From positions 62,001-126,000 of the forward strand of contig DASUWA010000013.1 in assembly GCA_036378675.1 (NCBI GenBank): 64,000 nt of DNA, given 5' to 3'. The position numbers and the translations under genes are program-made. Shown here in pieces: positions 5,386 to 56,104 of the stretch. This DNA is from Acidimicrobiales bacterium (lineage in GTDB: Bacteria; Actinomycetota; Acidimicrobiia; Acidimicrobiales; Palsa-688). How positions within the stretch are numbered: position 1 is the first letter of the stretch; each line of letters begins with the position of its first letter. Below the pieces are notes generated by a model. That model searched no databases. It saw nothing but the letters and a program-made list of their open reading frames with translations, and was not told the origin of the DNA.

Positions 5386-5410
5386 CGACTGAGCGACGCG
5401 CCCAGATCTA

Positions 5411-6031
5411 TCAGGTCGTGTAGTGAACGGTCCCTCGGAACACGGCGCCGTTCACCGCTAGTTCGTAGCTGTCTCCCTCGGCAAGGAGGTAGTTGTCCTT
5501 CTGCTGATACTGGGAGTAGGCCGATCCGAACGTGAACACCACCTGGCTCGGTGTGAACTTGGATTCGATGAGGCCGATGCAGTCAAGTTCATTCAGGTTG
5601 GGCCTGTACCGTCCTCCGGCCCAGTTCCGGCTGGTGTCGAACAGGTAGAAACTGGTGCCGTAGTCGTACCCCTGGTTCGCCGATGGTGGCAACGGGCAGA
5701 GGTTGGTGCCCTCCGGCGTGTAGGTGGGATTGGGTGCCGGCAGCTGACCCAGGCCGGAACCGGATACCGTCACCGTCGGATTCAAGGTCGTCCCACTGAA
5801 CACGACCGATGTGATCGCAGCACCTGCGGCCGAGCCGGCTCCCCCCGCCGACCCGTTTGTGGTGCTTGATTCCGGCTGGGCGGTCGCGGCAGGGGCTGTG
5901 GTGACCGATGGTCTTGTGGAGTTGCTCGAGCCACCGTTTCCTGTCGAAGTTCGGCTGCTCCCTCCGCAGCCTGCAATGAACGCAGCTAACAGGACGAGTC
6001 CGACCCGCGTGTAGCGGAAAGTCGATGACAT
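5411..6031 (-). CDS. Predicted lipoprotein of unknown function
   Basis: A 206-residue exported protein starting at ATG 6031 behind a good ribosome-binding site (AGAGGGG about 8 bases upstream). The N-terminus has basic residues, a hydrophobic stretch and a lipobox ending IAGC, so lipid attachment at that Cys is expected. A Ser/Thr/Gly/Asn-rich linker follows, typical of surface lipoproteins. The folded C-terminal half has several Tyr and Trp residues and two Cys. I do not recognise the domain. It faces away from the secreted protein at 6300. Confidence 0.7.
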   Translation of the reverse strand: MSSTFRYTRVGLVLLAAFIAGCGGSSRTSTGNGGSSNSTRPSVTTAPAATAQPESSTTNGSAGGAGSAAGAAITSVVFSGTTLNPTVTVSGSGLGQLPAPNPTYTPEGTNLCPLPPSANQGYDYGTSFYLFDTSRNWAGGRYRPNLNELDCIGLIESKFTPSQVVFTFGSAYSQYQQKDNYLLAEGDSYELAVNGAVFRGTVHYTT

Positions 6032-43028: not shown

Positions 43029-43403
43029 TCACACGGTGCTGTGGCGGCTGCTGATGGGGTCGGTCTTCTCGTCGCCCGAGAGGCCGATGGGCCGGCTGCG
43101 AAGATCGAGTAACACAGTGTGGTGCTCGTCGGCGATCGAGACCTGAGCTACCGACTGGTTGTACCGGAACTTGAGCTTTACCTCAGAGCAGAGAGTGGCC
43201 CAGCGGTCCACCGCAAGGACGGCCAGGAGCGCCCAGGCCTGAAGTGGAATCGCCGCGTCCAGCGAAAACGCGGTCCCGCTAAGGCGGTGTTCGTCGGGCG
43301 CGCAAAGCACGTCGATCACCAGCTCTTCCGGACGCGGTTCGGCGAAGATGATCTGCGCGCGCAGTTCGGGTAGTAGATGCGACGTCGGGTGCCTATGTTT
43401 CAC
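43029..43403 (-). CDS. Unrecognised protein in the operon with the RHH-like paralogue
   Basis: A 124-residue protein starting with ATG 43403, which overlaps the end of the preceding gene by 11 bp. Third codon positions are strongly GC-biased, so it is probably expressed. Segments such as IIFAEPRPEELVIDVLCAPD and KLKFRYNQSVAQVSIADEHH alternate polar and hydrophobic residues like a small beta-rich fold. No family is recognised. Its coupling to the RHH-like gene suggests a shared role. Confidence 0.55.
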   Translation of the reverse strand: MKHRHPTSHLLPELRAQIIFAEPRPEELVIDVLCAPDEHRLSGTAFSLDAAIPLQAWALLAVLAVDRWATLCSEVKLKFRYNQSVAQVSIADEHHTVLLDLRSRPIGLSGDEKTDPISSRHSTV

Positions 43404-43914
43404 CCGGATCTCCTTCCGGCACGTCTTCCCCAGCGGTGCTGCGCTCGCTCTCGCCAGTGCCGCGATCGGTATGGAGATGCTCGGTTTCCATCACTGCGGC
43501 CCGCACTTCGCTCAGCGCCTCCTGCATTCCCCGCACGGTGACCGGGTCGTCGAGGCGGGTTCGCCACTCTGTACCCCACCGGTCCTCGAGGACGCGCTCG
43601 CCGTCGTCGCCGAATCGTGCGCGGCGAATTCGCCAAGGCGATCTCACCAGTTCAGATAGTTGCGACCAGGTGATCGTTTCAGCGACCGCTATGCCGGCGT
43701 GGTAGCCGTCGTCGTAGCGGGGCCTGATCTCGGCAACGAACCGCTCGGCGACATGAGCGATCCGTTCCGAGGTCCACAGCGGACCGGAACGGGGCTGGCC
43801 CCAATACGTGCACGCCGCGTCGGCAGCGGACATCGCCGAGCGGAGCGCAGACTCCACCACGGACGAGACGCTCCCCAGCAGCTCCTGCACCGCTTCCTCG
43901 ACAGGTGCTCCCAC
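43393..43914 (-). CDS. RHH-like paralogue lacking the DNA-contacting beta-strand
   Basis: A 173-residue protein from GTG 43914 with GGAGGTGAGG upstream. Its middle (about 58-130) aligns with the neighbouring RHH protein at 44025: over a 39-residue gap-free stretch starting ERFVAEIRPRYDDGYHAGIA, 13 residues are identical by hand count. Residues about 15-30 (SVSSVVESALRSAM) match the second RHH helix of the neighbour, 8 of 14. The beta-strand that would touch DNA is absent, and a stop lies just upstream in frame. A heterodimer partner is a fair inference. Confidence 0.6.
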   Translation of the reverse strand: MGAPVEEAVQELLGSVSSVVESALRSAMSAADAACTYWGQPRSGPLWTSERIAHVAERFVAEIRPRYDDGYHAGIAVAETITWSQLSELVRSPWRIRRARFGDDGERVLEDRWGTEWRTRLDDPVTVRGMQEALSEVRAAVMETEHLHTDRGTGESERSTAGEDVPEGDPGET

Positions 43915-43932
43915 CCGACCTCACCTCCGGCG

Positions 43933-43996
43933 CTGTAGGATATATAGGTAGGATAGAATGGGTACGACAAAGCGTCAAGGGTAGGATGTACTACAG
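43933..43996. promoter_or_regulatory. Bidirectional promoter region with three GTAGGAT repeats
   Basis: GTAGGAT occurs at 43935-43941, 43948-43954 and 43981-43987, the first two 13 bp apart. CTGTAG at 43933-43938 and CTACAG at 43991-43996 form an inverted pair framing the array. The 110-bp gap carries the promoters of both divergent genes and is AT-richer than its surroundings. TAGGAT also resembles a -10 box, so the repeats may be promoter elements as well as operators. Confidence 0.55.
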
Positions 43997-44024
43997 TTGC
44001 AAACAGGCTTGGTGAGAAGGGCAG

Positions 44025-44531
44025 ATGGCTAAACGCAGCGTCTACATACCGGATGGACTCTGGACCGAGATCCAGGATCAGGTACACGGGCTCAACCTGA
44101 GCGTCTCCGAGATCGTTCAGACAGCCCTGCGCCAAGCGTTCGGCGCGACCAGAACCCACGCCCCGACGCCCGACGAGGCCTTCAAACCTCGGCACCGGCG
44201 CGTAGACGCCGACACCCTGGACCGGCTGAAAGACAGGTTCCAAAAGCAGGCTCAGGCCGCCTACGACGAAGGCCACGACTACGGCAGCGAGATCGCAGGA
44301 AGGCTCAACTGGGCGGAACTGGGAGCCCTTGCACGCACCAACTGGCGTCATCCCCGAAAGGACGGCGACACGGGCTGGGACGCCTACCAAGCAGTGCTCG
44401 GCACGCCGTGGGGGCCCGAATGGGTCAACCGTCTGAAAGAGGACGGCATGGCCAGCCGCGGTCTCAGCGACGCGCTGCAGGAGATATACGACTACACCAC
44501 CGCTGACCTAGCCGACGATCCTGACGGCTAG
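44025..44531 (+). CDS. Ribbon-helix-helix regulator with a novel C-terminal domain
   Basis: A 168-residue protein from ATG 44025 with AGAAGGG upstream. Residues 1-40 form a ribbon-helix-helix domain: strand KRSVYIP, then helices DGLWTEIQDQVHG and SVSEIVQTALRQAF. The C-terminal domain (about 62-155) has YDEGHDYGSEIAGRLNWAEL, then ARTNWR and WGPEWVNRL, and is shared with the divergent neighbour. It probably binds the repeats in the promoter between them. The role of the shared domain is unknown. It ends 3 bp from the convergent GGDEF-EAL gene. Confidence 0.65.
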   Translation: MAKRSVYIPDGLWTEIQDQVHGLNLSVSEIVQTALRQAFGATRTHAPTPDEAFKPRHRRVDADTLDRLKDRFQKQAQAAYDEGHDYGSEIAGRLNWAELGALARTNWRHPRKDGDTGWDAYQAVLGTPWGPEWVNRLKEDGMASRGLSDALQEIYDYTTADLADDPDG

Positions 44532-53953: not shown

Positions 53954-54454
53954 CTATCCGCACGAGGCGCTGACGTTCTGGACGCTGGCCGTTGGCTGTC
54001 CAGTGGCGTTGGTCGTGCCGTGGAAGTTGACGTGAAGCTGCAGAGTCCCTGCGGGCCCCGTCCCCGAGAAGTTAAGGGTCAACCCGCCCTCGCTCTGAGC
54101 TTTGGCGTTGTTGCCGCCGCCCTGCCAGATGGTGAGGTGCCCTTGGTACCAAGGCGTGCTGTTCTCGTAGAAGACGGCGGTGCCCTCCATGGTCATGCCA
54201 CCCCAATCGCCGTTGGCGTTCATCGTGCCGTGCTGAACCTCATTCCCGGACAGGAACACGAAGTTGGCGTCCTCGTTTGGGAACGGGCACGACGAGGGGA
54301 GCGCTACCGGCGACGGCCCGATGTCGAAGGGTGTGCCGGCGGGGACGCTTCCGGTTTGTGCCGAAGCGAAGGCAGGGGAAGCGTAAAGGCCGATGGCGGC
54401 GGCCGCGGTCAGCGCGGCGGCTCCGGCGGAACGAACTACGGACATTGTTTTCAT
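53954..54454 (-). CDS. Secreted protein of unknown function
   Basis: A 166-residue exported protein from ATG 54454 with GGAGGGG upstream. The signal peptide covers about 1-30 and ends ASPAFA. The mature part is a Gly/Asn/Ser-rich, likely beta-sheet domain with Cys near 55 and near the C-terminus (SASCG) that may form a disulfide. No family recognised. It lies 52 bp upstream of the FtsX-type permease on the same strand. Confidence 0.7.
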   Translation of the reverse strand: MKTMSVVRSAGAAALTAAAAIGLYASPAFASAQTGSVPAGTPFDIGPSPVALPSSCPFPNEDANFVFLSGNEVQHGTMNANGDWGGMTMEGTAVFYENSTPWYQGHLTIWQGGGNNAKAQSEGGLTLNFSGTGPAGTLQLHVNFHGTTNATGQPTASVQNVSASCG

Positions 54455-54754
54455 GTGCCCCTCCGAGCAGGTCATGGCGCAACACGGTGTCGTCGCCATC
54501 GGTAGTCGGATGGATTGTCGGGTGCGCGTCGAAATCCCGGAAGGGTGGAAGCACTCCGGTTGTAGGTGGTGCTACCTCCACGCGCCTCCGGTCCCTAGGG
54601 AACGTCGGCTACCAACGCACCACGGCGTAACTGCACCCGAATCGAGATTCAGGTCACTAGATCGGCGGATGGCCTAACAGACAGTGATCCCCGCAGCGGC
54701 GGTCTTGCATTGGTACCTTTCGCACGTTTCAAGATCGAAAAGGAGGGGCACTCG
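54455..54754. other. Intergenic region between divergent genes
   Basis: A 300-bp gap between the secreted-protein start and the flavin oxidoreductase start. Only the two ribosome-binding sites are clear (GGAGGGG on the minus side, AAGGAGGGG at about 54740 on the plus side). Small palindromes such as CCCTAGGG near 54593 are present. No coding frame with actinobacterial codon bias was seen. Confidence 0.5.
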
Positions 54755-56104
54755 ATGGCTAGTCGTCGTGCAGTCGTTGTCGGCGCCAGCATGGCTGGGC
54801 TCACAGCTGCGAAGGTTCTGGCGGACAGGGTGGACGAGGTGACGATCGTCGAGCGCGACGTCCTTCCCGCCGAGCCCGCAGACCGCAAGGGAGTACCCCA
54901 AGGCCGGCACGCCCACGGCCTTCTTCCGTCGGGGGAGCAGGTTCTTCGCGATCTCTTCCCTGGGATCATGGAGGACCTCGAGGCTGGTGGGGCCCAGCGG
55001 ACCTCGACCAGCAGCGCGAAGTGGTGGCAGTTCGGTGGCTACCGCGTAGATGTCCCCGAGTTCACCGGAATGTTCTTCTCCCGCTGTTTCCTCGAGAACA
55101 CGGTCCGCAAGCGCGTGCTCGGCGTGCCCGGCGTGTCTCTCGTCTCGGCAGGAGCTCAGGGACTCGTGGTCGAAGGCGGGCGCGCCAGAGGAGTGGTAAT
55201 CGAAGAGGACGGCCAGTCCCGGCAGATTCCTGCGGACGTGGTCGTGGACGCGTCCGGGCGGGGCTGCCAAGCTGCGCGCTGGTTGGAGGCAGCCGGGTAT
55301 CCCATCCCCGAAGTGGCGCAAGTCACCGTAGACATGGCCTACGCCACGCGCTTGTACCGGCGCACCCCCGGCCGGCTGCCCGACGACACCTGGATGATCA
55401 CAATCGGCGACCCTGACCGCTGCCCGCGCTTCGGCGTCGCCTTCCCGATCGAAGGACGGCGATGGATCGTCACGCTCGCCGGCGTGCATGGCGACCGTGC
55501 GCCGACCGACGACGACGGCTACCTCCAATACGCCGAGACGCTTCCGACCGGTGACGTCGCCGACGTGATACGGAACGAAGAAACGCTTTCACCCATCGTG
55601 ACCCATCGGCTCCCGTCGAACCAGTGGAGACATTTCGAGAAGCTGAACCGCCACCTCCCAGGGTTCCTTGCGATCGGAGACGCCATCTGCAGCTTCAACC
55701 CGATATATGGCCAAGGAATGAGTTCGGCAGCGCTTCAATCCATCGCGCTCCGCTCGTCGATCGAAGCCGTCGGCATCGACTCGCCCTCCCTCGCCGATCG
55801 CTTCTACAAGGCGGCCGCCAAGGTCATCGCCAACCCTTGGGCGATCGCAGCAGGCGCCGACTTCGTGTTCCCTCAGACGACTGGCTCGAAGCCGCCGATG
55901 GTCGATCGCATCAACGGCTACGTGAAGCGAGTCATCATCGCCGCGCAGTACGACCCGGTCGTGGCCAGAGCAATGTGGGAGGTTCAGGGTCTTTTGGCTC
56001 CGCCTCCGTCGCTGATGAAGCCGCAGATGATGGTCAGGGTGCTCCGGGCGGCGCGCAAAGGCCCGCGTGGACTGCCTGCAAGCGCGGTCGCCGCGCCTGT
56101 TTAG
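54755..56104 (+). CDS. FAD-dependent oxidoreductase of the geranylgeranyl-reductase/halogenase-like group
   Basis: A 449-residue flavoprotein from ATG 54755 behind AAGGAGGGG. The N-terminal dinucleotide motif is VVGASMAGLTAAK at 8-20, with the acidic ribose-binding E near 34. The late GD motif FLAIGDAICSFNPIYGQG is near 315-332. This matches PHBH-fold monooxygenases or reductases acting on lipophilic substrates. A short HGLLP element near 50-55 is typical of a hypothetical actinobacterial subgroup. The substrate is unknown. Confidence 0.83.
   Translation: MASRRAVVVGASMAGLTAAKVLADRVDEVTIVERDVLPAEPADRKGVPQGRHAHGLLPSGEQVLRDLFPGIMEDLEAGGAQRTSTSSAKWWQFGGYRVDVPEFTGMFFSRCFLENTVRKRVLGVPGVSLVSAGAQGLVVEGGRARGVVIEEDGQSRQIPADVVVDASGRGCQAARWLEAAGYPIPEVAQVTVDMAYATRLYRRTPGRLPDDTWMITIGDPDRCPRFGVAFPIEGRRWIVTLAGVHGDRAPTDDDGYLQYAETLPTGDVADVIRNEETLSPIVTHRLPSNQWRHFEKLNRHLPGFLAIGDAICSFNPIYGQGMSSAALQSIALRSSIEAVGIDSPSLADRFYKAAAKVIANPWAIAAGADFVFPQTTGSKPPMVDRINGYVKRVIIAAQYDPVVARAMWEVQGLLAPPPSLMKPQMMVRVLRAARKGPRGLPASAVAAPV

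Follow-up and report, generated by a model that had tools for sequence, protein, structure and literature searches.

In a 64,000-nucleotide stretch of DNA from an Acidimicrobiales bacterium (the window), we found two divergent paralogous genes, one encoding a protein (P0002) with a ribbon-helix-helix (RHH)-like start and the other a protein (P0001) that lacks the DNA-contacting RHH strand. The spacer between them carries short repeats, as well as a motif common to the promoter regions of related genes in other genomes. Many small bacterial regulators have an RHH domain, in which one and the same strand reads the DNA and builds the dimer; a paralogue missing the strand only would show whether the helices and the attached domain suffice to capture and silence the intact copy. 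The observation is real and modestly novel, and it suggests, short of proof, a gene switch that brings its own antagonist. P0002 would be an autoregulating RHH repressor and the strandless P0001 would act through mixed dimers, an account to which, taken as a whole, we assign a probability of about 0.45.

A divergent pair of paralogues

P0002 (168 residues) is encoded on the plus strand at 44025-44531 and P0001 (173 residues) on the minus strand at 43393-43914; the coordinates and reading frames first proposed for the two genes proved correct on re-check. P0002 consists of a predicted RHH domain (approximately residues 1-41) and an all-helical C-terminal domain (C-domain, approximately residues 60-164), as delimited by BLASTP, AF2 and the alignment to the VapB-like protein P0007 described below. 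P0001 retains the helix part (residues 5-30) and the C-domain. The next gene, P0003 (124 residues; 43029-43403, minus strand), starts before P0001 ends, with an overlap of 11 nt, which makes co-transcription of the two probable. Scored by the codon use of the long open reading frames of the window, P0001 and P0002 both show coding-like codon use (GC3 of the two, 0.74 and 0.78). Their GC content (0.667 and 0.643, respectively) is like that of the neighbouring genes (0.651) and thus gives no sign of recent import.

The two proteins are identical at 46 of 145 aligned residues (32%; BLASTP E 1e-16), with both domains covered, which bears out the paralogy originally proposed from shorter stretches. 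The counts given for those, 13 of 39 identical residues without gaps in the C-domain and 8 of 14 in the RHH-like second helix (SVSxxVxxALRxA), were confirmed by eye on the alignments. When the parts were compared separately, the score of the C-terminal parts (140) was reached by none of 5,000 shuffles (best shuffle 65), as was that of the N-terminal parts (48), the latter by a narrow margin (best shuffle 46). A tblastn search of the whole genome of origin (as searched, 4.1 Mb in 75 contigs, 97% complete) with P0002 returned itself and P0001 (4e-13) as the sole matches at E 0.001. In a tree of five proteins, P0001 and P0002 group at 99/97, apart from three more distant relatives (P0004, P0008 and P0005, see below); five sequences are thin evidence, yet the tree agrees with a gap common to the pair, both of which miss a stretch of the C-domain present in the three relatives. 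P0001 does not appear to have evolved clearly faster than P0002, as their branch lengths in this tree are 1.02 and 0.84, respectively.

P0001 has no DNA-contacting strand, as had been predicted. An in-frame TGA (43923-43921), followed by two sense codons, sits just upstream of the GTG start (43914), so that the gene cannot carry the strand, and by eye nothing strand-like resembling the P0002 start (MAKRSVYIPD) was seen in the other two frames upstream. The RHH helices are kept: residues 5-30 of P0001 align without gaps to residues 16-41 of P0002 (11 of 26 identical), and 11 of the 12 hydrophobic helix positions remain hydrophobic. Since P0004 and P0008 both begin with strand-like sequence, we read the absence of the strand in P0001 as loss. 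An origin of P0001 as a local inverted duplicate of P0002 (or of a common ancestor), with subsequent loss of the strand, is well supported by these sequence comparisons. The codon use, SD and promoter of P0001 resemble those of a live gene; the SD-like sequence GGAGGTGAG (43920-43928, minus strand), read from the sequence, lies ahead of the GTG start.

The evidence on the full RHH domain assigned to P0002 is mixed. The region has no direct match in Pfam, and its match to NCBIfam TIGR04563 is weak and below cut-off (E 0.0021). The assignment is supported by way of P0007, an RHH-only, VapB-like protein of genome G863, which aligns to the P0002 RHH with 21 of 46 residues identical and itself reaches Pfam CcdA (PF07362) above the gathering score. 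In addition, the start of P0002 is close to that of P0008 (MARISVYIPD). AF2 models of P0002 and P0001, built from two-sequence alignments, had mean pLDDT of 61 and 69, respectively. The C-domains were helical, with pLDDT, in blocks of ten residues, of 87-93 in P0001 (one block at 65) and 52-85 in P0002. The RHH parts of both proteins were below 60 (residues 1-60 of P0002 below 50) and drawn as one helix, with no strand in the low-confidence model of P0002. The structure predictions, therefore, neither support nor exclude the RHH or the pairing. Fold comparison of the P0001 model gave nothing usable (Foldseek, VIA; best E 1.1, best Z 3.3), and sequence searches of the PDB returned no match for P0002 and two weak rows for P0001 (E 0.25 and 0.62).

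The C-domain and its relatives in other genomes

The C-domain had been noted as unrecognised, and indeed none of the family libraries searched gave it a name above cut-off. Profile searches found it, behind an RHH start, in two proteins of the same order, P0004 (genome G917) and P0008 (genome G1200; L038 406-1203, minus strand); by database labels the two genomes belong to one genus. In P0008 the two RHH helices are separated by a serine/glycine-rich insertion of some 30 residues; the low-complexity family matches of this protein, all below cut-offs, were taken as chance. The nearest library family was Pfam DUF6415 (P0004 residues 114-165; E 0.0086, 17.3 bits versus a cut-off of 27.5). P0004 also matched Pfam CcdA below cut-off (E 0.046); P0001 and P0002 matched neither of these two Pfam families.

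A tblastn search with P0004 led to P0005, a protein of 410 residues encoded on a Nocardia sp. NBC_01503 plasmid (NZ_CP109597.1, 161453-162685). In place of the RHH, its N-terminus matches HTH_31, just above cut-off. Its C-terminus is probably homologous to the C-domain, judging from the BLASTP match to P0004 (E 2e-9 as a single comparison, 9e-3 collection-wide) and an hhalign probability of 79% for P0005 against profile A3. The C-domains of P0004, P0008 and P0005 are longer than those of P0001 and P0002. As the domain apparently occurs joined to an RHH in some proteins and to an HTH in another, and goes unnamed in the libraries, we regard it as a candidate module for binding partners or signals.

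The survey suggested with the original prediction spoke partly against obligate pairing, as all three C-domain relatives were found without a strandless neighbour. P0004 is next to a divergent AAA_16 gene; P0008 has a downstream open reading frame, P0009 (4-nt overlap), and a divergent gene resembling a membrane protein, on a 5-kb contig that ends inside the P0009 frame; and P0005 is flanked by other genes, none of them a strandless partner. Pairing is thus not conserved in the searchable data. P0004 and P0008 have the RHH start, the C-domain and the GTAG-CTAC motif described below in common with P0002, but not the partner. All the relatives are more distant from P0002 than P0001 is, so the pair may be a lineage-local invention rather than a decayed old system; what the comparison appears to support is a lineage-specific duplication, not a conserved two-gene system.

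Searches of larger samples gave few candidates. P0002 and P0001 were each found in 1 of 32 genomes of the family, and P0002 in 2 of 396 genomes of the phylum (own genome included in each case), where the second match, a frame with two stops, was judged chance. Profile A1 was found in 1 of 395 class genomes, 3 of 397 order genomes (E up to 0.01) and 13 of 396 phylum genomes (E up to 0.05), again with the own genome included; G080, the one inspected among the 12 other phylum rows, was judged chance. Profile A3 matched 4 of 35 genomes in the family of G917 (E up to 0.01, centre genome included), the rows of G774 and G1201 being weak, and G863 gave a second weak row (E 0.025). Profile A4 matched none of 197 genomes of another class. 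The genome samples overlap, and scoring in most of the large ones was limited to 8-9 candidates per genome (16 for A4), so that relatives may have been missed.

No relative was found in viral contigs with P0001 to P0004 or profiles A1 and A3, in phages with the same four proteins, or on plasmids with P0002 (E 0.01), P0001 and P0003. Five plasmid records matched P0002 at E 0.09 to 5 when E up to 10 was allowed, and were taken as chance; the C-terminus of P0005 found only itself on plasmids. A pattern scan of genome contigs, limited to two degenerate patterns, gave one match, in Polaromonas, which was rejected as it sits inside a 391-residue frame that we take to be a radical-SAM-type protein. 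A text search of open-licence literature, including part of PMC2701414, found no printed description of a strandless RHH paralogue.

Repeats and predicted promoters in the shared spacer

The suggestion that the two genes share a promoter region was borne out by their divergent 110-bp spacer (43915-44024; GC 0.52 versus 0.65 for the window), which carries repeat sites. The heptamer GTAGGAT occurs in it three times, at 43935-43941 and 43948-43954 (plus strand) and from 43981, the last copy within an inverted pair GTAG-N6-CTAC (43981-43994), and no further copy was found on either strand of the 64 kb. Any 7-mer was present three times in 110 bp in 34 of 20,000 shuffles. Pairs of GTAGGAT 3-30 bases apart were found nowhere else in the genome, both matches being those of the spacer. 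Three places in the window contain some threefold 7-mer in a span of 60 nt, which makes the repeat unusual, not unique.

A GTAG inverted pair is present upstream of all three genes that encode an RHH together with the C-domain. Before P0002, P0004 and P0008 it takes the forms GTAGGATGTACTAC, GTAGTACTAC and GTAGCACTCCTAC (GTAG-N-CTAC with gaps of 6, 2 and 5), which begin 44, 14 and 27 nt before the respective start codons. In joint shuffles, a common half-site arose in 8, 14 and 25 of 4,000 cases for gaps up to 6, 8 and 10, respectively, and in 6, 11 and 15 of 4,000 when the last 110 nt only were used; the motif was found post hoc, its gaps vary and two of the three genomes are from one genus. 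With a gap up to 6, the window has the pattern at two positions, 43981 and 54562. Eight other loci, 73.6 kb in sum, contain three further copies, one each ahead of P0004 and P0008 and one in genome G003. The pattern is absent before the VapB-like gene of G863 and before P0005. The second copy in the window (GTAG-N6-CTAC, 54562-54575) lies in a divergent spacer, between 53954-54499 (minus strand) and 54710-56104 (plus strand).

A promoter scan found a promoter-like TTGACG-17-TATCCT for P0001 and P0003 (43950-43978, minus strand; one hit in 301 bp versus a shuffle expectation of 0.1), the -10 hexamer of which is overlapped by the second GTAGGAT. Promoters were also predicted for P0004 (GTGACT-18-TATAGT) and P0008 (TTGACG-18-TATCTT), and in both genomes the GTAG-CTAC motif coincides with the predicted -10 or directly follows it. 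No P0002 promoter passed the scan; TAGGAT at 43982-43987 could be its -10. The inverted pair is likely to be an autoregulatory operator, a reading weakened by the occurrence of the motif with no RHH and C-domain gene nearby (54562 in the window and L014 6149 in G003). The proposed operator makes the question of antagonism testable by a small reporter.

How the pair may work

In the account that we prefer, P0002 would bind GTAG-type half-sites around both -10 regions and thereby repress transcription from the spacer that it shares with P0001. P0001, having arisen by inverted local duplication and lost the strand but neither the C-domain nor the hydrophobic side of its RHH helices, would most likely enter, together with P0002, mixed dimers or oligomers of low affinity for DNA, thereby setting the level or threshold of P0002 repression. 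P0003, made from the same message as P0001, would serve as the output under regulation or as a third component. DNA binding and repression by P0002, the mixed dimers and their effect, and the role of P0003 are all parts that we infer. A more far-reaching version, in which a bacterial RHH repressor and its duplicated strandless antagonist share one operator-bearing spacer and the ratio of the two copies is an adjustable switch for P0003, appears to us rather doubtful.

SinI of Bacillus subtilis is a short relative of SinR, an HTH protein, and the genes of the two are adjacent. According to PMC4238804, the partner binds the repressor as a heterodimer, which frees its promoters. P0001 is likewise a relative of a regulator without the DNA-binding part, and by analogy the pair might work like SinI/SinR; in contrast to that system, P0002 is an RHH protein, a full second domain is retained in P0001, the two genes point in opposite directions and the interaction is a proposed one. 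Similarly, Id proteins are paralogues of bHLH factors that have the dimerisation parts without the DNA-contacting part, and their effect is established. P0001, too, keeps putative dimerisation parts and lacks the DNA-contacting one, but the Id system is eukaryotic and of an unrelated fold, and for P0001 the antagonism is proposed. P0002 is also like CcdA/VapB-type RHH antitoxins in its RHH-like sequence and likely autoregulation at short repeats, whereas it differs in its helical domain of some 100 residues and in that no adjacent gene was recognised as a toxin.

In the RHH fold, two molecules contribute strands that pair to make up the ribbon, as described in PMC5016525. Loss of the strand may therefore weaken dimerisation and the C-domain might be the sole contact, so that a strandless copy could poison the RHH dimer or fail to dimerise. 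It is possible, though in our estimate somewhat unlikely, that P0002 is an autoregulated RHH repressor on which P0001 does not act, P0001 having a separate job, in which its C-domain might for example bind P0003 or a ligand, or being on its way out. The loss of half of the dimer ribbon and the overlap of P0001 with P0003 are in keeping with such independence, as is the lack of a strandless partner beside the three relatives, which also weakens the mixed-dimer account; the near-equal branch lengths, the intact hydrophobic helix face and the live-gene signals of P0001 (promoter and codon use) argue against it. Alternatively, P0001 may strengthen repression, with the C-domain linking it to P0002 in larger assemblies that span the repeats. 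Retention of the C-domain in both proteins, and several half-sites over 60 bp, would suit such oligomers, but these are hypothetical and a protomer without the strand makes no RHH-type contact with DNA; a co-repressor is improbable.

It is improbable that the locus represents a type II toxin-antitoxin module, intact or as a remnant, with P0002 antitoxin-like and P0003 or P0001 as the toxin. Neither P0001 nor P0003 matched any Pfam, NCBIfam or PADLOC family significantly (nor did P0003 in PHROGs, with one weak row at E 0.21), leaving no recognisable adjacent toxin, though a toxin of an undescribed kind could be present. What speaks for such a module is the closeness of the P0002 RHH to P0007, beside which lies a presumably VapC-like gene, and the 4-nt overlap of P0008 with P0009, which we take to be a toxin, together with the HTH-annotated neighbours of P0009 homologues on plasmids. 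P0009, however, has no significant match in Pfam, NCBIfam or PHROGs (the best PDB toxin, RelK, is at E 0.92), and no RHH gene was seen upstream of its homologues in the four plasmid loci read on that strand. P0003 was tried as a toxin and this was not supported: it does not resemble P0009, and its relatives occur without the P0001/P0002 pair. The genome of origin has three copies of the P0003 family (43029-43403 in the window; L013 4960-5328; L015 about 5400-5750), and 1 of 31 other genomes of the family, G003, has a relative (L014 5616-6080); no RHH gene was seen beside the other copies. GTAG-N6-CTAC (L014 6149) lies 69 nt before the G003 copy, and was rejected as a feature of the P0003 family as the two other copies in the genome of origin are without it.

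The family of P0009 (L038 2-409) has the motif GGGYWEAM..M.GW.EVR and includes eight plasmid records from Streptomyces, Nocardia and Rhodococcus, annotated as hypothetical (for example NZ_CP140775.1, NZ_CP109597.1 and NZ_CP011296.1). In all five of the plasmid loci fetched, the convergent gene is annotated as helix-turn-helix, and an addiction-module antidote model matched the two of these neighbours scanned, weakly and below cut-off. The P0009 family and its HTH neighbour are perhaps an under-annotated toxin-antitoxin pair.
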